A stretch of DNA of 32,003 bases, taken from an uncultured Clostridia bacterium. Lineage in GTDB: Bacteria > Bacillota > Clostridia > Christensenellales > Borkfalkiaceae. Shown in pieces: positions 14,352 to 24,465 of this stretch. How positions within the stretch are numbered: the stretch's first letter is position 1; every line of letters begins with the position of its first letter. Made by a program: the position numbers and the translations under genes. The stretch covers positions 1 through 32,003 of the forward strand of contig CALVMP010000012.1 in the NCBI GenBank assembly GCA_944346655.1, read 5' to 3'. Below the pieces are notes generated by a model. That model did not search any database. It was not told the origin of the DNA and saw only the letters and a program-made list of their open reading frames with translations.

Positions 14352-15041
14352 TTATATGCCGAGAGGAATAACGTCGTTGTAGACGGCGCGGAAGCGTTCG
14401 CCTATCGGGCAGTCGGCGTGGTAGTGCCCGAAGTACCAGCGTTTGAACGAGACTTCCTCCTCGAAGCGGGAGAGCATTATATTTTCGGGATAGACTCCCC
14501 GCTTGCGCGAGAGCATGCCCGCCGGCGCGAGCGATAGCGCCTTCTGCCCGCAGGAGTGGGTGATTATATAGTCCACCCTGTTGCCGTGTTTTGACAGGTT
14601 TTTAAGCCCCTCTTCAAACTCGGTCTGAGAGGGAACCTCCTGCGACCACCAAGAAAAGCTTTGGGTGCGGTACGCACTGTCGACGCTGGTTGCGCCGCCG
14701 AAGGTAAAAATTTTATTGCCCTCCAGCTCGAACACCTGACCGCGCATGAGGTGAATAACCGTCGGGCAGACGAAATGCACCCTGCCGCCCCTCCACACCC
14801 TTTCGGGCATGGAGTAAAGCAGGTCGAAATTTTCGTGGTTGCCGTCGGCGAAGAGCACGGTAAAGGGAAGTTGTTCATAGGGCTGTAAGTCGGCTTTTAA
14901 GGTCTTATCCCACCACACTCCGCCGAAGTCGCCGCAGATTATGACATAGTCGTCTTTGGTTAAGCCGGGGCGGCTTTGGGCAAAGCGGGCGAGCTTTGCA
15001 AAATCGACGCCGCCGTGGGTGTCGCCCGTGACGAAGATCAT
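14352..15041 (-). CDS. Calcineurin-like metallophosphoesterase
   Basis: 229 residues. The metal-binding motifs of the superfamily are in order: FVTGDTHGG (D-x-H), IICGDFGGVWWD (GD), FADGNHENF (GNHE), IITHSCG (H) and FGHYHAD (GHxH). Such enzymes are two-metal phosphomonoesterases, phosphodiesterases or nucleases; substrate cannot be read from the sequence. ATG 15041 is preferred over a start 129 bases upstream because AGGAGG lies 9-14 bases before it and the family starts with a short strand and GDTHG. It is last gene of the four-gene unit that contains the VirD4-like ATPase, 11 bases after the winged-helix gene, so it may provide a nuclease or phosphatase step for that system. Confidence 0.92.
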   Translation of the reverse strand: MIFVTGDTHGGVDFAKLARFAQSRPGLTKDDYVIICGDFGGVWWDKTLKADLQPYEQLPFTVLFADGNHENFDLLYSMPERVWRGGRVHFVCPTVIHLMRGQVFELEGNKIFTFGGATSVDSAYRTQSFSWWSQEVPSQTEFEEGLKNLSKHGNRVDYIITHSCGQKALSLAPAGMLSRKRGVYPENIMLSRFEEEVSFKRWYFGHYHADCPIGERFRAVYNDVIPLGI

Positions 15042-15052
15042 TTTCACCCCTC

Positions 15053-15649
15053 CTAAATGCTGTACATGGCATTGAAATCTTCGTCCGACAGGTATACCTT
15101 GAACCGCCCGAGCGAATCGGGGCTGGAGGATATGTAGACCTTGTCCATCATCCAGCCGAGGAAGGAACATGCCGTTGAGTAGTCGACGGGCAGATTTTTC
15201 CTTACGAGCAGAGCCGAGGCATAGCCATTATCTATGCACAGCCTGAGCGCCTCCACGCAGTATACCTCGTAAAAGCTTTCGGGCAGTTCGGGCGGGCGCC
15301 TGCGTTCGTCGCCGCCCTCGAAGAGGAAATTATACAGCCGTTCGGGGTCGATGTCGCACTTGCCGTCGTCGACGGCGCCGAAGAGCTCGCAAAACAGCCT
15401 GTCGCGCTCCTCGTCGCCGTCCGTCTCCGCCCCGTCAGCGGCGGCATATTCGGGGGGAAACTCCTCTTTTTCCACCGTGCAGACATAGGAGAGCCCGTCG
15501 GGGCAGGAAGCCGCCAGACCCTCCCTTACCATTGCGTCGACAACAGCCGCGGCTTTGGTGTAGCTTATGGAAAAGTGCGACTGTATGAGGGGGACGGAGA
15601 ACACTTCCTTTTCCCTGCAGAAGAGAATTATTTTGTTAAAACCGGTCAT
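15053..15649 (-). CDS. Protein with two FtsK-gamma-like winged-helix domains
   Basis: 198 residues. Two segments look like the DNA-reading gamma domain of FtsK/SpoIIIE: residues ~15-48 (FSVPLIQSHFSISYTKAAAV then VDAMVREGL) and ~131-176 (VEALRLCIDNGYASALLVRK then NLPVDYSTACSFLGWMMDKV). Both keep the family's S-x-LLQ-R-F-x-I-x-Y-x-x-A pattern, though the second has Leu-Pro-Val in place of the basic stretch. They are joined by an acidic linker (residues ~60-125). FtsK-gamma binds oriented DNA sequences and directs the motor; here the domain is on a separate polypeptide whose gene lies 12 bases after a VirD4-like ATPase gene of the same HerA-FtsK superfamily. AAGGAGG precedes ATG 15649. Function as a DNA-reading subunit is inference. 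Confidence 0.75.
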   Translation of the reverse strand: MTGFNKIILFCREKEVFSVPLIQSHFSISYTKAAAVVDAMVREGLAASCPDGLSYVCTVEKEEFPPEYAAADGAETDGDEERDRLFCELFGAVDDGKCDIDPERLYNFLFEGGDERRRPPELPESFYEVYCVEALRLCIDNGYASALLVRKNLPVDYSTACSFLGWMMDKVYISSSPDSLGRFKVYLSDEDFNAMYSI

Positions 15650-15661
15650 TTTGAACCTCCT

Positions 15662-17374
15662 TTAAATGTCCCAGCCCCTGCGCGGGCGGCTTTTCTTTAA
15701 CGTGAAGATATACTTTTCGTCAAAGGGATTGACCGAACTCACATAATCGTGCTCGGACGCCGCGGGCAGGGCGATGAATTCGGGACAGCGGTAATACCTT
15801 GTAAGCTTGGAGAAGAGCACGTAGCCCGAGTTCGCCTCGGTGACTATGCACTCGCCCTCGCCCAGGCAGGACAGTCTGCTCTTGGTTACGAGGCGGATTG
15901 TTTCAAGCTGGTAGTTGTCGATATCGTCACCCCTGCCGTTGAGCGCCGAAAGGGGGGATATGCGCGTTCTTTCGCCGCACTCGCGCGAAAACTGCTCGAG
16001 CGTGGAGTAGTTGTTGGAGCCCATGAACACCTTTACGTTGAGATTGTCGAGAATGATTTCAGATACCTCCTTGCCGTAAACGTTGGCAAGCTGGGCATAG
16101 GACTGGATTATGAGAATGAAAAAGATATTGCGCCCCGCGCAGGCGGAGATTGTGGTGTCGAACTCGTTTATGGCGGGGAAGTTGCCGAACTCGTCGAGGA
16201 CGAAATAGAAGGGAACTTCGAGTCTGCCGTCGGGGCTGCGGTTTGCCCGCTCTATGAGGAGCTTGTAGGCGTGCTGAACGAAGAGGGAAATTATCTGGTA
16301 GTGCGCCTTTATTTCGTCGCGGTAGTCAATGAAGATAGCCACGGGTTCGCGGACGATATCCTCCATATCGAACGAATTGCAGCCCGTTATGAGGCGCACG
16401 CCTACGTCGCGGAATACCGCGAGCTTGGCGTTGAAGGAGCTTATTACGCACTTGCGCGTGTTGGGCGCGTTTTCAATAAAGGAGTTTTTGGCGAGCAGGC
16501 GGGCGCGGGAGTTTTCGGGGCGCTTGGAAAAATAGCCGCCGTCGTCGTACCACGAGTCGCGGTCATCCCTGAACTGCGCCAAAATGGAAAGAATGGTGTT
16601 GAAGGAGAAGGTGTCCTCGGTTATGAGCTGCTTTTCGAAGTCGCCGTCGTCGCGGGCGTTGAGCGATTCCTCGCGGCTGTCCTCGAGCATAGCCCAGATG
16701 AACGCCTTCAGTACGTCCCTTGCCGTGTCCTCCCAGTAGGGGTCCCTGGTGTTGACGGTGGCAATGAACATGGCGGCCAAGTCGTCGATGTCCTTGCCGA
16801 CGTCGTCGACAGCCATTCTGACGATTGTCGAGAGGTCCCTGTCGAGCGCCTTGCGCGTTTTGTACACCTTGCCCCTGAAAACCGAGCGGGGACCGTCCTT
16901 GGTGTCGGCGACGCCCACCTCGTCATATACGGCGTACGCCTTCTGGTACTTGCGGTATATGGGGGTGAGCATATTCCAGCACTCGGAGTGGTTATAGTCC
17001 CTGAAGTTCATAAGGAGCACCTTGTACCCCGCCTCCCTCAACGCGGCGGAGGTGTGGCGGTAGAGCTCGCCCTTGGGGTCGGAAATTATCATGCTGCGCC
17101 TGTCCCCCCGCTTTGCGTTCGAAAGAATGGTGGGAATTACATACCCCGTCGTTTTGCCGAGGCGGGTCGCCGCGACGACGAGGGTGTGGTTTTCCTCCCC
17201 GGAATAGAGCTGCGAAAGTTTGCCGTCGCGGTATAAATTTGCCTTTAGCACGCCGCGCACGGGCGTTGAACCCAAACCTTCGTAGGGCACCCAGCCGAGA
17301 CCTTCGGCTGAGTCATAGTTTATGAGAGCGGCGTTTTCATAGTCGCCGAACACGTCTTTACCGAAATTTATCAT
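15662..17374 (-). CDS. VirD4/TraG-like coupling ATPase, soluble form
   Basis: 570 residues. HerA-FtsK superfamily, type IV coupling protein branch: Walker A AATRLGKTTG (residues ~68-77), IISDPKGELYRHT (~96-108), Walker B VPFYFVLDEFGNFP (~387-400) and the sensor-like IIQSYAQLANVYG (~422-434). Coupling proteins pump DNA or deliver substrates to conjugation machines as hexamers. The usual N-terminal two-helix membrane anchor is absent: the protein begins MINFGKDVFGDYENAALINY and has no hydrophobic segment before the ATPase. No relaxase, VirB4 or other mating-pair gene lies in the window. Its ATG overlaps the stop of the upstream gene (ATGA), which implies translational coupling; the FtsK-gamma gene follows after 12 bases. 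Confidence 0.92.
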   Translation of the reverse strand: MINFGKDVFGDYENAALINYDSAEGLGWVPYEGLGSTPVRGVLKANLYRDGKLSQLYSGEENHTLVVAATRLGKTTGYVIPTILSNAKRGDRRSMIISDPKGELYRHTSAALREAGYKVLLMNFRDYNHSECWNMLTPIYRKYQKAYAVYDEVGVADTKDGPRSVFRGKVYKTRKALDRDLSTIVRMAVDDVGKDIDDLAAMFIATVNTRDPYWEDTARDVLKAFIWAMLEDSREESLNARDDGDFEKQLITEDTFSFNTILSILAQFRDDRDSWYDDGGYFSKRPENSRARLLAKNSFIENAPNTRKCVISSFNAKLAVFRDVGVRLITGCNSFDMEDIVREPVAIFIDYRDEIKAHYQIISLFVQHAYKLLIERANRSPDGRLEVPFYFVLDEFGNFPAINEFDTTISACAGRNIFFILIIQSYAQLANVYGKEVSEIILDNLNVKVFMGSNNYSTLEQFSRECGERTRISPLSALNGRGDDIDNYQLETIRLVTKSRLSCLGEGECIVTEANSGYVLFSKLTRYYRCPEFIALPAASEHDYVSSVNPFDEKYIFTLKKSRPRRGWDI

Positions 17375-18951
17375 TTTGCGTTACCTCCGAATCCTATGGC
17401 GTTTGTAAAGTTGGAAGATGAAATGTACTGTTCGAGCATATGCGCGGTGACGGTTACTCCGCCGCTCCTCTCCGCGCCGCGCACGGCGGCTTCGATTGCC
17501 CTGCGGGCGACGGACGAAGTGCAGTCTGCAAGCCTTGAAAGGGCGTCGTCCGAAAGGCTTACAGCGCCGAACTCCTCTGCCATGCCGCCGAACACAGCCC
17601 TGCACTCCCCGTCGGTCATGGGCGAAATTTCCACCCTGCGGCAGCACGCTCTGAAGGGGTCTTCGTTGCGGCTGTCGGCAATGACGACGACGGCGGCGCG
17701 CCCGAGATTTAAGGTGACGCCGAGGTCTGCAAGGTGAAAGCGCGAGCGCTTTGCGGGGTCGGCAAAGTCGGCAACCGCCGAGAGTATGCCCCCGGGCACC
17801 TCGCCGCGCACGGTGATTATGTAGCAGTTGGGCTTGTCCTCGTCGGCGGTGCGCACAAAGATGTTGCCCCGCGAGGGCTCGGCGTCGTAGGAAGAGAGCG
17901 CGGACGCTTCTATGCGCTCGACATGCACGCCCGCAAGGCAGTCCGCGACGGCAGCCGAATAGGCTTCGGCAAGGTACGCGCCGTCGCACGAGAGCAGGAG
18001 CGAAGGACACTCGCCGCCCGCCTCAAGTACAGCCGAAAGGGCGCGGGACACCTCCTTTTCCTCCTTCCTGCAGAACGCGGGGGAGAGTTTTAACGGGGAC
18101 ACATGCGCGGGGAACTCTGCCCTGCCGAACTTTAAGGGCAGGTTGCCGACGGCGGCAATGAGGTCCTTTGCGTTAGAGTAGACAAGCCGTTCCTTGTCCC
18201 GCCCGCCGAGCACGGGGCTGTAGACGGTGCGGGCAAGCTTGGAATCGTACTGCCCGCGCTTTGCCATGCCGGAAGAGAACGCCTTGGCGACGAGCACGGC
18301 GCCTTCGGGAGCCTCCCCTCCGCAGCCGAGATCGCACGCCACGCCCGAGAGGGACGAAAAGGGCGTTCCCTCAGCCGCAAGCCTGAGGCGGGCGAGGTTG
18401 TAGTCGCGGTCGGGTCTGCTGTAGGCTATGAGCGCGAGGAGCGCGGGCACGTACAGCCAGTCGGCTGCCCTCGAGAGATACTTTAAGCCCTCGGCTTTGT
18501 TTTCCTCGAAGAAGATGCCGTTGTACATGAGGGTGCCGCAGACGGTGAGAGCCGCGACCGAACCCGAGTTTGCGCTGTCGGTCAAAGCCGCGTGGACTTC
18601 GTGGCGGGCGGCGTTCGCATTGGCAAAGACCGTCTTTTCAAGCGAGACGAGCACGTTACCCCTGATGCCGATAACCTCCTCATAGTCCTCGGACAAAGCC
18701 TTCCTTCTGCCCTCGATGACGGCAAAGTACTTGTTCAGCCGGCTGCGCAGCAGGAAGTCGTCGGCAGTCTTTATGCGGCTGACCTCCTCCGACGAAACTA
18801 TGGAGTACAGCCTCTCCTCTTCCTCCTCTTCTATGAAGAAGGTTTGGGCAAGGCGGGAAAAGAGTTCCTTTTTGTTCTTAAGAAACCTGCCTGCCATAGC
18901 CTCGCAGAGCATGTAGTGCGATAAAAATAATTCTGTTGTTGAGTTTAACAT
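17371..18951 (-). CDS. Sel1-like plus degenerate Lon-type AAA+ protein
   Basis: 526 residues. Residues ~1-100 are helical and acidic. Residues ~130-178 resemble Sel1 repeats (AALTVCGTLMYNGIFFEENK then AEGLKYLSRAAD). Residues ~315-495 have the order of an AAA+ module closest to Lon: a Walker A position without the lysine (LLLSCDGAYLAEAYS), a Walker B position without the acidic pair (CYIITVRGEVPGG), a sensor 1-like strand (AAVVVIADSRNEDPF), and the lid (RVEISPMTDGECRAVFGGMA ... LSDDALSRLADCTSSVARRA). It should not hydrolyse ATP. First gene of the VirD4 unit, overlapping it by 4 bases, so a scaffold or regulator of that motor is plausible (inference). ATG 18951 is set by AAGGAGG 6 bases upstream; an in-frame start at 18975 is less likely. 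Confidence 0.8.
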   Translation of the reverse strand: MLNSTTELFLSHYMLCEAMAGRFLKNKKELFSRLAQTFFIEEEEEERLYSIVSSEEVSRIKTADDFLLRSRLNKYFAVIEGRRKALSEDYEEVIGIRGNVLVSLEKTVFANANAARHEVHAALTDSANSGSVAALTVCGTLMYNGIFFEENKAEGLKYLSRAADWLYVPALLALIAYSRPDRDYNLARLRLAAEGTPFSSLSGVACDLGCGGEAPEGAVLVAKAFSSGMAKRGQYDSKLARTVYSPVLGGRDKERLVYSNAKDLIAAVGNLPLKFGRAEFPAHVSPLKLSPAFCRKEEKEVSRALSAVLEAGGECPSLLLSCDGAYLAEAYSAAVADCLAGVHVERIEASALSSYDAEPSRGNIFVRTADEDKPNCYIITVRGEVPGGILSAVADFADPAKRSRFHLADLGVTLNLGRAAVVVIADSRNEDPFRACCRRVEISPMTDGECRAVFGGMAEEFGAVSLSDDALSRLADCTSSVARRAIEAAVRGAERSGGVTVTAHMLEQYISSSNFTNAIGFGGNAK

Positions 18952-19001: not shown

Positions 19002-19030
19002 ATTTTAATATGCAGCGCCGCGCCGTTCAA
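19002..19030 (-). promoter_or_regulatory. Promoter of the VirD4-like unit
   Basis: On the minus strand TTGAAC (19025-19030), 17 bp and TAAAAT (19002-19007). A TATAAT box overlaps just downstream but has no matching -35. The predicted leader is ~45 nt. Confidence 0.6.
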
Positions 19031-19070: not shown

Positions 19071-19103
19071 AAAAACAACCTGTAAAATTTACAGGTTGTT
19101 TTT
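19071..19103 (-). terminator. Strong terminator after the XRE-type regulator gene
   Basis: A perfect 16-bp inverted repeat with a single-base centre (19071-19086 and 19088-19103, arms A5-CAACCTGTAAA). It ends in T5 on both strands and lies ~31 bases after the regulator stop codon, separating it from the VirD4-like unit. Confidence 0.9.
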
Positions 19104-19133: not shown

Positions 19134-19457
19134 TCAGTCAAAGACGATGATATCCTCCGGCTTTACGCCGGAGATGGCGCAATAAAATAGCATATCCTCC
19201 AGTCCTACGGGCGTTTTGCCCGATTCCCAGTTAAAAATAACGCTGTCCGAAACATTGAAAATTTTTGCAAGCTCTGCGCGGCTGATGTTCATGTCGATAT
19301 CGTACCTGCAATCTTCGCACAGACCCGAGCATTCGTTTTTGTCGTAGTTGAGGGCGCGGCATACGTTCCTGCGGAGCGCAAGATTGTCGTTCCTTAAAAT
19401 GAGCAGATTCCTGCCCGTCTTTTCCCAATTTATGTGCTTCCTTGAGATATTTGACAT
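19134..19457 (-). CDS. XRE-type helix-turn-helix regulator with a cysteine cluster
   Basis: 107 residues. Residues ~58-105 are an XRE/Cro-type HTH (SRAELAKIFNVSDSVIFNWE then SGKTPVGLEDMLFYCAISG), including the WE-G-K-P signature and the downstream helix. The N-terminal half is unusual: C33, C43, C47 and C50 (NVCRALNYDKNECSGLCEDC) could bind zinc or sense redox state. The start ATG 19457 is set by AGAGGATTATC; a start 105 bases upstream would add a Phe/Lys-rich stretch covering the promoter. It has its own promoter and terminator and sits between the YbjN/AAA+ unit and the VirD4-like unit, where it could control either. Confidence 0.85.
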   Translation of the reverse strand: MSNISRKHINWEKTGRNLLILRNDNLALRRNVCRALNYDKNECSGLCEDCRYDIDMNISRAELAKIFNVSDSVIFNWESGKTPVGLEDMLFYCAISGVKPEDIIVFD

Positions 19458-19616: not shown

Positions 19617-20096
19617 TTATTCGTCCATGCCTTTAAGAAATTCCTCAAGCGACATGCGACCCTTTGCAAGGAGCAGAAGGGTGTCGTTGTACTTATCGAC
19701 GGTGTAGCCCGTGCAGGCGACCATGTAGGCGAGCAGGTCCTTTGAAATGAGGCTGTCCTTATAGCTTGCCGTCATTCTGAACATTACAGTGCCGTCGGCG
19801 AAGTTGTAGTCGAAACATCCGTCGGCGAGTTCGTAGTTTATGCGGCAGGTTACAACCGCGCCGAGCACCCTGTCGTCCCCGGAAAAGGTGACGGGTAAAT
19901 AGGAAAACAGGCGCACAAGCTCCCTTTCGGCGTCGACCGCGATAAGATAGTCCATGGGCAGATCTTCTCCGCGCATGGTGAATTTTACCATCATTTCGTC
20001 GTCCATGCGGTTGTAGCGCACCTCTTTTTCGTCGAGCATGGCACACAGGTTGTTATACATGTTCTGTGCATTTTTCATTAATATTGCGTCGGTCAT
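19617..20096 (-). CDS. YbjN-like protein, second copy
   Basis: 159 residues, AAGGAGG before ATG 20096. It has the YbjN pattern: an N-terminal helix (AQNMYNNLCAMLDEKEVRYN), a strand pair with GEDLPMDYLIAVDAERELVR, FSYLPVTFSGDDRVLGAVVT, then the family core NYELADGCFDYNFADGTVMF, and a C-terminal helix (LLAYMVACTGYTVDKYNDTL). YbjN folds like type III secretion chaperones and is thought to bind other proteins; no enzyme motif is seen. It is clearly a paralogue of the gene 12 bases upstream (shared GEDLP, NxxLxxGxFDYNxAxGxxxFR, SLIS, LL, TVDxYND), so this is a tandem duplication. It ends the AAA+ unit. Confidence 0.8.
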   Translation of the reverse strand: MTDAILMKNAQNMYNNLCAMLDEKEVRYNRMDDEMMVKFTMRGEDLPMDYLIAVDAERELVRLFSYLPVTFSGDDRVLGAVVTCRINYELADGCFDYNFADGTVMFRMTASYKDSLISKDLLAYMVACTGYTVDKYNDTLLLLAKGRMSLEEFLKGMDE

Positions 20097-20108: not shown

Positions 20109-20585
20109 TTACTGTATGAACTTTATTACCTCATCGGGTCCCATATTTTCCTTGGACACGGTGAAAAACTTATCGTTGTATTCGTCGACGGTGACGACCG
20201 TTGCGGCGAGCAGATACTTTAACAGATTTTCGGATATTAAGCTGTTTATGTAGCTTGAGGTAATTCTGAATAAAATTACGCCGTTGGCAAGATTATAGTC
20301 GAAACTGCCGTTGGGAAGCCCGTGGTTGGCGAGACTTACGGCGATTGCCATCAAAACGCGCTGGTCCTCGGGGACCTCGAAGGGAAGCTGCGAAAAGATG
20401 ATTATTATCTGCTTATCGGCGTCCACCTCAAGATGCAGCGAGATGGGCAAATCCTCCCCCTTGGTGCCGGTGGTGATGGTTAAATCCTCCTCGTTTGCGT
20501 CGTAGGTCCAGTCGAGGTTGTCGAGCATGCCGCACAGCGACCTGAATACGTTTTTTGCCTGCTTGAGTTGATTGTTGTCTGCCAT
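20109..20585 (-). CDS. YbjN-like protein, first copy
   Basis: 158 residues, AAGGAGA before ATG 20585. Same architecture as its downstream paralogue: AKNVFRSLCGMLDNLDWTYD, KGEDLPISLHLEVDADKQII, FSQLPFEVPEDQRVLMAIAV, NHGLPNGSFDYNLANGVILF, SSYINSLISENLLKYLLAAT, VVTVDEYNDKFF. The gene begins 12 bases after the AAA+ gene, and the pair may act as chaperones or adaptors for the AAA+ protein (inference; CbxX-type ATPases commonly act on a partner encoded next door). Confidence 0.8.
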   Translation of the reverse strand: MADNNQLKQAKNVFRSLCGMLDNLDWTYDANEEDLTITTGTKGEDLPISLHLEVDADKQIIIIFSQLPFEVPEDQRVLMAIAVSLANHGLPNGSFDYNLANGVILFRITSSYINSLISENLLKYLLAATVVTVDEYNDKFFTVSKENMGPDEVIKFIQ

Positions 20586-20597
20586 AATTTTCTCCTT

Positions 20598-22607
20598 TTA
20601 TATATTGAAACCGATTGTGGTTTTACGGGGCTCGTTGAACGCAAACTCCCTGTCGGCGGTTGCGTGTTCGAAGTCCTCCTTGGTGAGGATTACTTCCTTT
20701 TTGCCCTCGAGCTGACAGCGCAGAGCCGCCTTGCCGCAGGTGCGCTCGAACAGGTTGCGCACATAGCGGGCGTTGGAAAATTCCTTTGCCTGCATCAGAC
20801 TTTCGGGCAGATTTAAAAAGTATTGTTCGGCGGCTGAAAGGAGAGACTTGTCGTATTTGAGCTTGTACCTCGTTTCCGCCTGCTTTTCGAAGATCTGATA
20901 GAGCTCCTCCCTCGTGAAGTTGGGGAACTCCAAAGTGTAGGGCATGCGGCTGGCAAGCCCGGCGTTGCCCTGCATCATAACTTCCATGTCGTCGGTGTAG
21001 CCCGCCATTATTACCACAAAGTCGCTGCGGTGGTTTTCCATTTCGGCAATGAGAGTGTCGAGCGCCTCCCTGCCGTAGTCCCTGCTGTCCGCGTCCCCGC
21101 GGTAGAGGGAATACGCCTCGTCGATGAAGAGCACCGAACCGTACGCGTCGCGGCATATGGCTGAGGTTTTGGGCGCCGTTTCGCCGACGTACCTGCCGCA
21201 GAAATCCCTGCCCTTGTATTCATAGAAGTTGCCCACGCGGAGCACTCCCTTTTCCTTTAAAATTCTGCCGAGCAGGCGGGCGACAGTCGTCTTGCCAGTG
21301 CCGGGATTGCCCACGAAGCGCATGTGGAGGCACGGTCTGTCCTCTTCCGACCTCAGCGCCAGTTCTATCTGGGCGATTATCTCGTTTACCCTTGCCACTA
21401 TCCCCTCGCTGCCGACGAGTGATTTGAGCTCCTCCATGGCGGTTTTTCCGCCCTTTACGGGATTTACCGAACATATGAGAGCCGCCTCCTTCTGTCCGAT
21501 GACGGCTTCGTTTTTATTGAGGCGGGCGTTTTTGAGCTGCTTTTGGTAGACGAGCTCGCGGACGACCTTGCGCACGGTATTTATGCCGTAGAACCTGCCG
21601 TCGCTCTTTTCCTCGGCTATTCTCTCGAAAAAACAGCTCCATGCATTCTGCGAAAGGGAGAAGCCCAGCCTTTCGAGCTCGGCTTTGGCGCAACCCTTCA
21701 GCTCCTCAGCGGAGAGGGGCGGGAAGGCGACGGGAGTTATGCTTAAAACGTCGCCGAGGGCAAAGCCCACCCTCGAGAGCACGTCCTTATCGACAAAGGG
21801 AATGCGGAATACGATGATGTTGCCTGCGGCGCTCTTTTCGACGGTGCGCATGAACTGCCTGAAGGCGGAGGAGGACGTCTCGTCCATCCATTCGCTGATA
21901 TCGATGCACACTATTCTGTACTCGCCCGGTCTGTTTATGCGGTTGAGCGCGGAATATGCCGCGTCGAAGGGGTCGTTTTCCGAGCGGGAGAGCCTGACTT
22001 CGGTCTCGTCCGCAACCTTTGCAAGTCCGAGAGCGGTTATGTATCTTCCCAGAATTTCAAGGTAGGTCGACAGCCCGCAGCCATCGCCTATCGAGAAGAG
22101 ATAGGAGCGGTTCAAAAACACCTCGCCCGTGCCCGAGGAGGCAAGCAGCGGGGCAACCTCCTCCAGTTCCTTTAAAAGACCTTTGAACTGCACGGCGCCT
22201 ATCAGCCGTTCAGCCTCATTTTTTACCGCGGAGATATCCTCCCCTCTCCCCGGACGCATTGAAAATGCGCGGGGCGCGGAGCGTTTTTGCTCTTCCTCCG
22301 CGGCGCCCTCCTCTTTCTTTTCCGGCTGTTCCTCCGCATAGTCGCCGAGCTCGACGGAAAAAATTTTTCCTACCTCTTCGCCTTCGTACGCGGCGGAAAG
22401 AAGTTTTGAAATTTTATCCTCCGCCTCGGACGCGGAGAGAATGTTGCCCTCAAAGGAAAATGAAATTCTGTCGAAGGTCTGGTCCATGAGCGAAAACCCG
22501 TCTATTGAGAGCAATTCGCTCTTTATGAGGTCGACAGGCAGAAGGGCGTCCCCGCGGCGGCTGAGCACCCAGTTGCCGTCAAATTGTACAGTGAGTATCT
22601 TTTTCAT
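20598..22607 (-). CDS. CbxX/SpoVK-type AAA+ ATPase with a degenerate first ATPase domain
   Basis: 669 residues. The C-terminal AAA+ domain (residues ~395-655) is intact and of CbxX/CfxQ type: Walker A FVGNPGTGKTTVARLLGRIL (432-450 region), the pore-like segment GRDFCGRYVGETAPK, Walker B SVLFIDEAYSLYRG, sensor 1 VVIMAGYTDDM, arginine finger LASRMPYTLEFPNF. An earlier AAA-like domain (residues ~165-350) has FSIGDGCGLSTYLEILGRYI with no Walker lysine and RIVCIDISEWMD at the Walker B position, so it is inactive. The first ~90 residues form a small alpha/beta domain. CbxX-type proteins remodel a specific partner, and EccA of type VII secretion is a relative. ATG 22607 has a weak GGGAAAG site. First gene of a three-gene unit with the YbjN pair, spaced 12 bases apart. 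Confidence 0.9.
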   Translation of the reverse strand: MKKILTVQFDGNWVLSRRGDALLPVDLIKSELLSIDGFSLMDQTFDRISFSFEGNILSASEAEDKISKLLSAAYEGEEVGKIFSVELGDYAEEQPEKKEEGAAEEEQKRSAPRAFSMRPGRGEDISAVKNEAERLIGAVQFKGLLKELEEVAPLLASSGTGEVFLNRSYLFSIGDGCGLSTYLEILGRYITALGLAKVADETEVRLSRSENDPFDAAYSALNRINRPGEYRIVCIDISEWMDETSSSAFRQFMRTVEKSAAGNIIVFRIPFVDKDVLSRVGFALGDVLSITPVAFPPLSAEELKGCAKAELERLGFSLSQNAWSCFFERIAEEKSDGRFYGINTVRKVVRELVYQKQLKNARLNKNEAVIGQKEAALICSVNPVKGGKTAMEELKSLVGSEGIVARVNEIIAQIELALRSEEDRPCLHMRFVGNPGTGKTTVARLLGRILKEKGVLRVGNFYEYKGRDFCGRYVGETAPKTSAICRDAYGSVLFIDEAYSLYRGDADSRDYGREALDTLIAEMENHRSDFVVIMAGYTDDMEVMMQGNAGLASRMPYTLEFPNFTREELYQIFEKQAETRYKLKYDKSLLSAAEQYFLNLPESLMQAKEFSNARYVRNLFERTCGKAALRCQLEGKKEVILTKEDFEHATADREFAFNEPRKTTIGFNI

Positions 22608-22689: not shown

Positions 22690-24465
22690 TTAAATATTTA
22701 CCTCGAGTCCGTTGCCGAGCATGTAGGAAACCCATATACCGTTTTCCACGATCTCTTCGCGTGCGACTTCCTTGATAAAGCCGTCCCTTTCGGCGTCGGG
22801 GCGGAAGGACACGTCCTTCCAGCGCTCGCACGCAGAGGCGTACAGGTTTGCCATTTTAAAGTTGTCGTCAGCCTTTCTGTCGTAGGACATCTTGCCGAAA
22901 TAACTGGAAAAAAGCAGGGACGCCGCCGTGGCTGTGCCGACTATGATTATGCCGAGGGAGCGCCACTCCACCCCGCCGGCCATTATGCCTTCCCAGAACC
23001 AGTTGTTGCCCGTGGCGTTTATGATGGCGGTGGCAAGCTCGAGGGCGAATATTACAAAGTATATGCCGACGGTCACGCCCGATATGCACCTGGAAAGGCG
23101 GCTGTTGAATACGCTCTTTGCCCTGTTTGCGCTCAGCTTCGAGGTGTGGTACTTAAGCTGTCCGGTGGGCTTTGAACTGATGCCCAGCCATACGTCTATT
23201 ATCTTCGACTTGTCGATGGCTGAAATTTTACCGGGATTGCATTCACAGATTATGCCCAACGCCTGAATTGCCTTGGCAATCCACAGCATGTCGCTCTTTT
23301 GCGTCCATGAATACAGGGTACATACGTTGTATAAACGCGATTGTTCGCTCAGCCCCATCGACATGTAGAACTGAATTCTCAAAGCTTCAGCCATTGCCCT
23401 GTATTCGACAAAATTTTTGTGGTATTTTTTGCGGTTGCCGAGGAACACGAGGGTCAACAGAAGAATGAGCGCGCACGTGCAGGCGAAGATCATCAAGGTA
23501 AGGGAGGCGTCGTCGTACAGAGTGAAGAAGAGCGCGACGAGCGTACCGAGGAAGGCTATAGCCAGCAGAAACTTGTTGTAGGGCTTCTGGTTGACGGTAT
23601 AGGAGAGGTGGTCCGCCTTTATGTAGTGGCTGCGAAGCCCGAGGCGGTAGTCGTCGAGCTGCTCGGGATTTGCCCACAGCTTTACGGCGTCGGTGCTGAC
23701 CGGAGCGGCGGCATTGTACTCTGCCGTGCGCTCTATAGTATCCTTTAAAAAGACGGGCGGTTCGGCAGTTTCGACGCGCACCGTTTTGGGCACGTTTACA
23801 ACCTCCATATGCAGCCACTTTGTAAAAATGCCGGGGTCTGCCGCGGAATCGAGCTTGTCCTTCTGCCTGCGCGTGTATATCCAGCAGACGGCGGCGTCGT
23901 TCAGAAGCCCGGGCTTGAAGAGGTGGTCCTTTGAAAGATACTTCTGCTCGAGCGCGAAGCTCACCACCTCGGCGGCGCCGCAGCCGAAGGGGTTGCTTTC
24001 GGGAGGTTCCTTGCCGTTCCACAGCGCAAGCAGTATGTGACTGTTCGCCGCCATATATATGCCGAGCTGGCGGTATTCGTAGTCGGTCTGCTTCATGTCG
24101 CGCTGGGTCTTTATCCAGTCGTAATTCTGCTCGGTATCGGGCGCGACGAACACGCGCTCGGCTCTGGATATGAGGCACCCGAACCTGACCTTTGCTTCGG
24201 CGTCCTCGATGCTCTCTATGTACCTCTTCTCCTCGCAGGGCATGACTACATACAGGGGTATGCCCGCTTCAACAGCGACTTCGGCGCACAGCATGTCAGC
24301 ACCCTCGGCAAGGGCGTTGAGCATTACGACGGGAGTGTCGCCGCACATTTGCTTTATCTTTAAAAGATCTTTTTTGACTTCTTCCTTTAAAGCGGGAATA
24401 TCTTCGGGATATAGATCGCGGTGACCCGTGACCCCGACCACGACGGGGATTTTTTCGCAGGACAT
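22690..24465 (-). CDS. SLOG-like nucleotide-sensor protein with two 2-TM (SLATT-like) modules
   Basis: 591 residues. The N-terminus (~1-200) is a Rossmann-like SLOG/LOG-type domain: VVVGVTGHRDL (6-18), MLNALAEGADMLCAEVAVEA then GIPLYVVMP (48-76) in the place of the GGAxGxD signature, and YMAANSHILLALWNGKE (137-153). Then ~90 linker residues and four membrane segments in two pairs: ~297-317 and ~321-343, and ~459-480 and ~504-523. Each pair is followed by a helix with the pattern seen in SLATT domains (FVEYRAMAEALR; FKMANLYASACERW). SLOG domains bind or process nucleotides, and SLOG-SLATT pairings were predicted as nucleotide-activated membrane effectors in bacterial conflict systems (Burroughs and co-workers). 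A pore-forming immune effector is therefore the leading inference. AAGGAGG before ATG 24465; own promoter. Confidence 0.85.
   Translation of the reverse strand: MSCEKIPVVVGVTGHRDLYPEDIPALKEEVKKDLLKIKQMCGDTPVVMLNALAEGADMLCAEVAVEAGIPLYVVMPCEEKRYIESIEDAEAKVRFGCLISRAERVFVAPDTEQNYDWIKTQRDMKQTDYEYRQLGIYMAANSHILLALWNGKEPPESNPFGCGAAEVVSFALEQKYLSKDHLFKPGLLNDAAVCWIYTRRQKDKLDSAADPGIFTKWLHMEVVNVPKTVRVETAEPPVFLKDTIERTAEYNAAAPVSTDAVKLWANPEQLDDYRLGLRSHYIKADHLSYTVNQKPYNKFLLAIAFLGTLVALFFTLYDDASLTLMIFACTCALILLLTLVFLGNRKKYHKNFVEYRAMAEALRIQFYMSMGLSEQSRLYNVCTLYSWTQKSDMLWIAKAIQALGIICECNPGKISAIDKSKIIDVWLGISSKPTGQLKYHTSKLSANRAKSVFNSRLSRCISGVTVGIYFVIFALELATAIINATGNNWFWEGIMAGGVEWRSLGIIIVGTATAASLLFSSYFGKMSYDRKADDNFKMANLYASACERWKDVSFRPDAERDGFIKEVAREEIVENGIWVSYMLGNGLEVNI

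Follow-up and report, generated by a model that had tools for sequence, protein, structure and literature searches.

To our knowledge, the characterised bacterial ATP-dependent proteases all use AAA+ unfoldases. VirD4 and its FtsK kin are DNA motors. Here we analyse a stretch of DNA from an uncultured Clostridia bacterium of the Borkfalkiaceae (assembly GCA_944346655.1, contig CALVMP010000012.1, G000:C12 in our numbering); it is an entire contig of 32,003 bases, which we call the window. It carries three core genes, encoding a pseudo-AAA+ protein (core 1), a soluble VirD4-like ATPase (core 2) and a winged-helix/FtsK-gamma protein (core 3), followed by the gene for a metallophosphoesterase (MPE). 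A first-pass annotation had read the four genes as a cytosolic, sequence-directed machine for DNA translocation or degradation. Two features absent from that annotation, a Phi-G-F tail on core 1 ([ILVMYFW]GF within the last 18 residues) and a recurrent ClpP gene, point to protein degradation. We propose, at even odds, that the products of the three core genes make up a proteolytic machine that depends on ClpP and draws its ATP-derived power from a VirD4-type motor.

The tripeptide [L/I/V]-G-[F/L] docks ClpX in a hydrophobic pocket of ClpP (PMC6110781); IGF loops are also treated in PMC9035409 and PMC12383707. AAA+ partners dock on peptidases via loops or C-terminal tails (PMC12521514), and the same paper shows that ClpC loses its hold on ClpP when its AGF motif is changed. 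Type IV secretion involves the unfolding of relaxases, by an unfoldase that PMC5826034 describes as unknown; a VirD4-type ring acting on protein is therefore not far-fetched.

The module shares with ClpXP and ClpCP a ClpP with an intact triad in many of its operons, the Phi-G-F docking motif and the AAA+ fold of core 1. It departs from those proteases in that its AAA+ domain is dead, its docking motif belongs to a C-terminal tail and not to a loop, and the neighbouring protein with intact ATPase motifs is of the VirD4 type. Lon is the best fold match of the core 1 AAA+ domain, but core 1 has no peptidase domain and no Walker motifs, and its N-terminus is Sel1-type. Core 2 is homologous over its length to the VirD4 type IV coupling proteins of the CD1115 family (NF045973) and keeps their Walker motifs; it differs from them in having no membrane segment, in its separate clade, in the lack of a PF03432 relaxase nearby and in its fixed partners of another kind. 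Core 3 has, by profile, gamma-like winged helices in common with FtsK and SpoIIIE, and 9/73 relatives have an FtsK/SpoIIIE motor in the downstream protein, whereas the gamma-like domains of the window stand alone, without motor, membrane domain or canonical-like recognition motif.

The three-gene module is conserved

Among 61 genomes, comprising that of the window and its relatives, close VirD4 homologues (at least 49% identity) are found in eight genomes at nine loci, and the dead AAA+ gene adjoins the VirD4 gene in all nine. For wider comparison we used 81 loci: the window and the best 80 of 342 confirmed relatives from a scan of a species-genome collection. Loci L042-L049 were left out as duplicates of eight genome_contigs loci, gene calls in the relatives are our own picks among open frames, and clustering of the motors at 80% identity gives 53 groups. 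The core 1 gene lies directly upstream of the VirD4 gene in 76/81 loci (four, L063, L078, L111 and L123, have no core 1 match). A winged-helix gene follows in 58/81; a gene directly downstream was called in 73 loci, and in 54 of these it is the winged-helix gene. Four further loci (L120, L124, L125 and L126) have a similar-looking winged-helix gene by eye. The module of pseudo-AAA+ protein, soluble VirD4-like ATPase and winged-helix/FtsK-gamma protein is conserved, and of the four-gene order expected across genomes it is the first three genes that hold, but not the MPE gene.

Further soluble VirD4s, 25-32% identical to that of the window, adjoin a short protein in the place of core 1 (L137-L140). 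The kinship of these short proteins to core 1 is judged from place, tail and eye, with a profile match for L138 alone (E 1.5e-7); L139 and L140 also have a likely winged-helix protein downstream, by eye.

At the level of the order, the module is present in 27/297 genomes and 14/125 genera. In a sample of 398 genomes from the phylum the window's own genome is the only carrier. Several genomes have two or three matches, some of them partial, and the carriers are, by their record titles, uncultured and largely gut-derived bacteria. Because its spread is patchy and its partners change, the module looks like an accessory system, perhaps one for stress or conflict. We recognised no published description of it in the literature searched, which consisted of titles and abstract starts with subscription journals poorly covered, and the conflict-system papers that were text-searched make no mention of VirD4, ClpP or Sel1.

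The dead AAA+ protein and its tail

Core 1 has no significant match in Pfam. An AlphaFold2 model built from 57 relatives (pLDDT 92.2) has a C-terminal part that matches the AAA+ domains of Lon and RuvB, and the core 1 profile retrieves Sel1-repeat proteins, which places Sel1-type repeats at the N-terminus. The AAA+ fold is thus present without its Walker A and B motifs: Walker A is lost in 57/57 family rows, and a loose Walker B remains in 1/57. Since the motifs are gone across the family, core 1 is dead family-wide and is not a recent pseudogene, and the first-pass call of a dead AAA+ protein was right. An origin in phages or plasmids was considered and rejected: core 1 has no match at E 0.001 in phage and plasmid collections, and a scan of viral contigs gave three VirD4s at 27-30% identity.

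The Phi-G-F tail is present in 72/77 complete core 1 C-termini, against 13/1040 for the remaining genes at these loci. Apart from G520 (57/57) and F521 (53/57), the protein end shows little conservation across the 57 aligned rows; the residue before G520 is Y, L or I in 48/57, and two glycines follow F521, each in 43/54. The stretch is disordered in the model. In the window the tail reads IGFGG, and the loop of the ClpX encoded in the same genome reads TTTLGFGGDV (LGFGG), so that, at the level of sequence, the tail of core 1 resembles the ClpP-docking loop of ClpX. The docking tripeptide expected of a ClpP partner is there, yet its first residue is often Y or F.

To these we can add a held-out set: 30 stretches were fetched, of which 14 were already among the 81 and four were unusable, leaving 12. 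All 12 have the Phi-G-F tail; their identity to the closest member of the 81 is 25-39%, in two cases over fewer than 60 residues. The profile that retrieved them, that of core 1, extends over the tail. An IGF-type tail also ends all four of the short sister proteins (L137-L140), which have no AAA+ domain. A conserved Phi-G-F tail on core 1 is well supported by these counts. ClpP docking by core 1 is a well-supported prediction, although the physical complex itself we infer.

ClpP as a recurrent partner

A ClpP gene lies within 9 kb of the module in 48/81 loci (26/53 groups), always on the same strand. It sits just upstream of core 1, and the middle half of the distances fall within 40 bases of each other. 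The operon-encoded protein is a true ClpP, matching solved ClpPs at E 4e-59, and the Ser-His-Asp triad is kept in 23/23 of those aligned (23 of 41 operon ClpPs). Its docking pocket is mostly altered: the equivalent of Y62 is Q in 21/23 and that of L114 is T in 21/23, while the housekeeping ClpPs have Y and L in 17/17. The E. coli numbers and the assignment of these residues to the pocket are our assumption, placed by distance from the catalytic residues, and we take human Y118 to correspond to Y62. The pocket residues of human ClpP are given as L104, Y118, Y138 and W146 in PMC6110781. Altered pockets are found in 45/48 operon ClpPs, the other three (L124-L126) being of the unaltered type. The operon ClpP differs from the 17 housekeeping ClpPs in its N-terminal segment as well, and in PHROGs its best matches are phage head-maturation proteases (1.1e-40).

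The first residue of the tail varies with the presence of the operon ClpP. This was counted over 71 loci, six with fewer than 900 bases upstream having been excluded. An I or L tail occurs without operon ClpP in 17 loci and with it in one; a Y or F tail occurs with it in 42 and without it in six; the five loci with no Phi-G-F all have it. The association between tail class and operon ClpP has a Fisher p of 6e-10 by locus and 9e-8 by group. Independent pairs on the tree give eight as predicted, none opposite and three without tail contrast (sign test 0.008). Taken by residue, this discovery set has Y with operon ClpP in 36/40, I or L without it in 17/18 and F with it in 6/8; an F tail goes with operon ClpP in just 1/8 held-out. 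The single I-tail locus with operon ClpP, L124, has a pocket of the unaltered type. L127, with a Y/F tail and no operon ClpP, belongs to the same genome as L074, where the altered ClpP is present, and for the held-out locus L183 (Y/F, no ClpP) the ClpP is likewise found elsewhere in its genome, G716, at L174. Eight of the nine I/L genomes searched have one ClpP of the housekeeping type. We regard the covariation of tail and ClpP as suggestive.

The window's own genome has ClpX, and its ClpP is on contig C47; in 3/8 genomes searched no ClpX passes the cut-off. As a separate observation, the sole ClpP match of genome G459 (locus L112) is that of the operon, and no ClpX passes the cut-off there.

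A soluble VirD4-type motor

Core 2 matches PF02534 at 3.2e-55 and just passes the cut-off of NF045973, the profile of conjugal VirD4-like proteins of the CD1115 family (251.1 bits, cut-off 250). Walker A and B are intact in nine of nine aligned proteins, and core 2 is the sole core protein with intact ATPase motifs. It has the ATPase of a VirD4 coupling protein, without the N-terminal anchor, without an adjoining relaxase of family PF03432 and, by eye, without mating-channel genes in the window. We scored as a membrane segment any 19-residue hydrophobic window above 1.8, anywhere in the protein, and repeated the test from the profile start because five motor frames begin too far upstream. All 81 core 2 motors lack such a segment, as the first-pass annotation had said of the window's own, and ten of 17 other VirD4s have one. 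The 53 motor groups form one clade (98/90) apart from these 17, with a bootstrap that is not fully settled.

PF03432, the one relaxase family searched for, occurs in 2/13 carrier genomes and lies there on a different contig from the module; no search was made for VirB4. In the window's own genome it is on contig C20, together with a VirD4 of the conjugative type that has a membrane segment. Among the open frames of the window no conjugation genes are seen by eye, in line with the earlier annotation. Against PADLOC-DB 2.0.0 core 2 is a weak match to mad8 (E 1.4e-4), and cores 1 and 3 and the MPE have no match.

The winged-helix protein

Core 3 matches PF09397, the FtsK gamma profile, at 2.2e-9 over two stretches (37.3 bits against 30.6), in line with the separate polypeptide with a pair of FtsK-gamma-like domains described at first pass. 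Its model has two confident winged helices joined by a low-confidence linker. A Foldseek search gives no match in the PDB at E 0.001. FtsK gamma chains are in its list with a compact but statistically weak match: E is 0.009-0.04, TM by target is 0.68-0.79, and nine of ten have an rmsd of 1.4-2.0. Winged-helix proteins of other kinds rank equal to or above them, and phmmer against the PDB reaches FtsK only at E 0.059. Of 73 downstream genes, 34 match PF09397 at E 0.01 and nine carry a soluble FtsK/SpoIIIE motor. The recognition residues of FtsK gamma we take to be G-Y-N-R-A. A canonical-like version of this motif stands behind the first winged helix in 14/62 winged-helix genes and is not found in the window's core 3, so sequence-directed movement is not established.

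Two downstream proteins deserve description. In locus L074 (11674-14259) an 861-residue protein begins with a winged helix, continues with the alpha, motor and gamma domains of FtsK and has no evident membrane domain. In L057 (8432-9421) the gene after core 3 encodes a protein with a GVGGAG start like that of FtsZ/tubulin-type proteins, by eye.

How the module might work

Core 1 would serve as a scaffold whose flexible Phi-G-F tail plugs into the hydrophobic clefts of the ClpP barrel in the manner of the ClpX IGF loops. For the window, with its IGFGG tail, this barrel would be housekeeping ClpP; in many relatives it would be the ClpP encoded just upstream, with its altered clefts. Substrate would be drawn into ClpP by the soluble VirD4-type ring of core 2, and core 3 would pick out what is degraded, probably proteins that sit on particular DNA: the winged helices, and the FtsK/SpoIIIE motor in 9/73 downstream proteins, suggest DNA-bound targets. 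In its fullest form the proposal is of a new way to power ClpP, in which a soluble VirD4-type ring of the FtsK/HerA superfamily replaces the Hsp100 AAA+ ring, a pseudo-AAA+ adaptor with C-terminal IGF/YGF tails couples the two, winged-helix/FtsK-gamma readers aim the machine at proteins on DNA, and in some lineages a private ClpP has arisen whose altered pocket matches the tail. This complete picture is tentative, and we rate it at somewhat less than an even chance. If true, ClpP would be powered by a motor of the VirD4 type, with a dead AAA+ adaptor between them; such an architecture would be new, would show a DNA/protein pump turned into a proteolytic engine, and would offer an orthogonal adaptor-ClpP pair (YGF tail and altered cleft). 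The claim rests on a three-residue tail and is therefore directly testable.

Several points weigh against a ClpP-dependent machine of this kind. The complex of the cores with ClpP, and the VirD4 ring feeding ClpP, are steps that we infer. Y as first tail residue falls outside the published [LIV]-G-[FL]. The operon ClpP is absent from 33/81 loci, the window among them. L060, L085, L094, L100 and L101 have Y/F tails in genomes whose ClpP is of the housekeeping type only, no clear ClpP is seen in the genome of L119 (LGF), L125 and L126 combine an FGF tail with an unaltered-type pocket, and L129 and four RGFGYGG loci are off the tail-ClpP pattern. The association was also discovered and tested on the same loci (post hoc), and the 12 held-out relatives (Y/F with ClpP 2, Y/F without 7, I/L without 3) give p 1.0.

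The same tail and ClpP evidence would serve a protease that tracks along DNA, in which core 2 moves on DNA guided by the gamma-like domains, core 1 tethers ClpP, and the cell's own ClpX or ClpC with ClpP clears proteins, so that the VirD4 ring threads no protein. That VirD4 and FtsK kin are DNA motors, that nine of the downstream genes include a soluble FtsK/SpoIIIE motor and that the own genome has ClpX all speak for it; housekeeping ClpX should, however, fit the operon ClpP less well if its pocket is altered, and the three genomes without a ClpX above cut-off count against it too, so we think it unlikely, if a serious contender. A machine acting on DNA itself, with incidental ClpP links, is what the first-pass annotation proposed, and it draws on the VirD4-type motor, the gamma-like domains and the conserved order. 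The cytosolic VirD4-type motor of that claim stands. DNA degradation is not supported, with the MPE outside the module and no recurrent nuclease seen, and sequence-directed tracking is possible but weakened by a recognition motif in just 14/62 and not in the window. This reading also leaves the tail and the altered ClpP unexplained, and it strikes us as quite improbable.

The patchy distribution (27/297 in the order) and the changing partners, Hsp70-like, RuvB-like, HTH and DUF1292-like genes, would suit a core 1 that regulates ClpP as inhibitor or recruiter, within a stress regulon where VirD4 and ClpP act on different substrates. Against this, the short sister proteins retain both the tail and their place beside the VirD4 gene, which ties docking to the motor, and we give such a regulon a slim chance. 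A decaying conjugative element, to which the narrow pass of NF045973 could be turned, is hardly credible: the motors form their own clade and have no membrane segment in 81 loci, the order is conserved in diverse genomes, and PF03432, among relaxases and VirB4 the one family searched for, is on other contigs in the 2/13 carrier genomes that have it. On the clade, the membrane segments and the placement of PF03432 we reject the conjugative remnant, as the first-pass annotation also preferred to do.

Layout of the locus

The four genes of the window are all on the minus strand, with a 4-base overlap and then gaps of 12 and 11 bases; the coordinates agree with the tight packing noted at first pass. 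A terminator-like hairpin separates the set from the upstream HTH gene and, with a weak promoter-like site, suggests that the four genes form one unit, as had been claimed. Both calls are from consensus scans, which give 21 terminator-like sites in total against 13 expected. The HTH regulator belongs to family F7, present in 16/81 loci and also in the sister locus L140 (E 4.7e-50).

Table 1. Positions in the window of the module, its predicted signals and the adjoining regulator gene.
Feature	Position	Strand	Basis
Core 1, pseudo-AAA+ scaffold: Sel1-type repeats and catalytically dead Lon/RuvB-like AAA+ domain	17371..18951	-	Fold model, profile, Walker motif check
I-G-F-G-G codons of the core 1 C-terminal tail motif, proposed ClpP-docking plug	17383..17397	-	Tail counts, alignment
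Core 2, soluble ATPase of VirD4 type with both Walker motifs (A and B) intact	15662..17374	-	Profiles, motifs, tree, hydrophobicity
Core 3, two winged-helix/FtsK-gamma-like domains with disordered linker between	15053..15649	-	Profile, model, Foldseek
Calcineurin-like MPE, loosely linked passenger gene	14352..15041	-	PF00149, neighbourhood counts
Terminator-like hairpin ending the upstream HTH gene	19071..19103	-	Consensus scan
Weak promoter-like site of the operon (9/12)	19002..19030	-	Consensus scan alone
HTH regulator gene, recurrent neighbour, own unit	19134..19457	-	Start set at inner ATG; family F7

The metallophosphoesterase and other partners

The MPE, which matches PF00149 at 1.5e-10, had been taken for a working part of the machine. 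It is near the module in only 10/81 loci (7/53 groups), lies elsewhere in the genome in G027, G028, G007 and G014, and occurs without the module in G013, G016 and G052; on these grounds we rejected it as a core part. Other partners vary as well: a DUF1292-like gene in 24 loci, HTH families in 24 and 16, and Hsp70-like and RuvB-like AAA+ proteins, the last two by eye. No recurrent nuclease family was seen by eye among the neighbours of the module. PADLOC matches among 86 chosen neighbours are scattered (there was no control set).

Single operons hold further partners. The module operon of L086 (3802-8256) has a Snf7 (ESCRT-III) match below cut-off (E 8.3e-4) and a trypsin-like protease; RuvB-like AAA+ genes with an N-terminal stretch that is MIT-like by eye are found in the module operons of L086 and L077. 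L110 (7657-10203) encodes an 848-residue protein with a coiled-coil N-terminus, RuvB_N and RuvB_C, and then a weak TnsA-like endonuclease match.

Surroundings of the module in the window

As a candidate for an empty site we looked at the relative closest by AddB (73%), in which cores 1 and 2 have no match. There addB and the lipoprotein gene are still together and the genes beyond are different; we did not find the other flank in the stretch, and a search with the ABC-transporter ATPase of that flank was uninformative.

Upstream of the HTH gene lie two small genes on the minus strand (19617-20096 and 20109-20585), one of them a YbjN match (PF10722 1.8e-5); a similar protein is also near the sister module in L138, by eye. 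A neighbouring unit (20598-22607, minus strand) encodes a CbbX/SpoVK-like AAA+ protein that ends in TTIGFNI and may also dock on ClpP; its family relatives in L117 and L120 are both without the tail. A further gene (22690-24465, minus strand) encodes a 591-residue protein with weak SLATT/DUF4231 matches; G007 and G010 have its N-terminal part on its own, upstream of their modules. At the end of the contig, 25-2000 on the plus strand, there is a piece of an RHS-repeat-like protein, by eye, and then a low-GC stretch (0.32 at 1001-2000).

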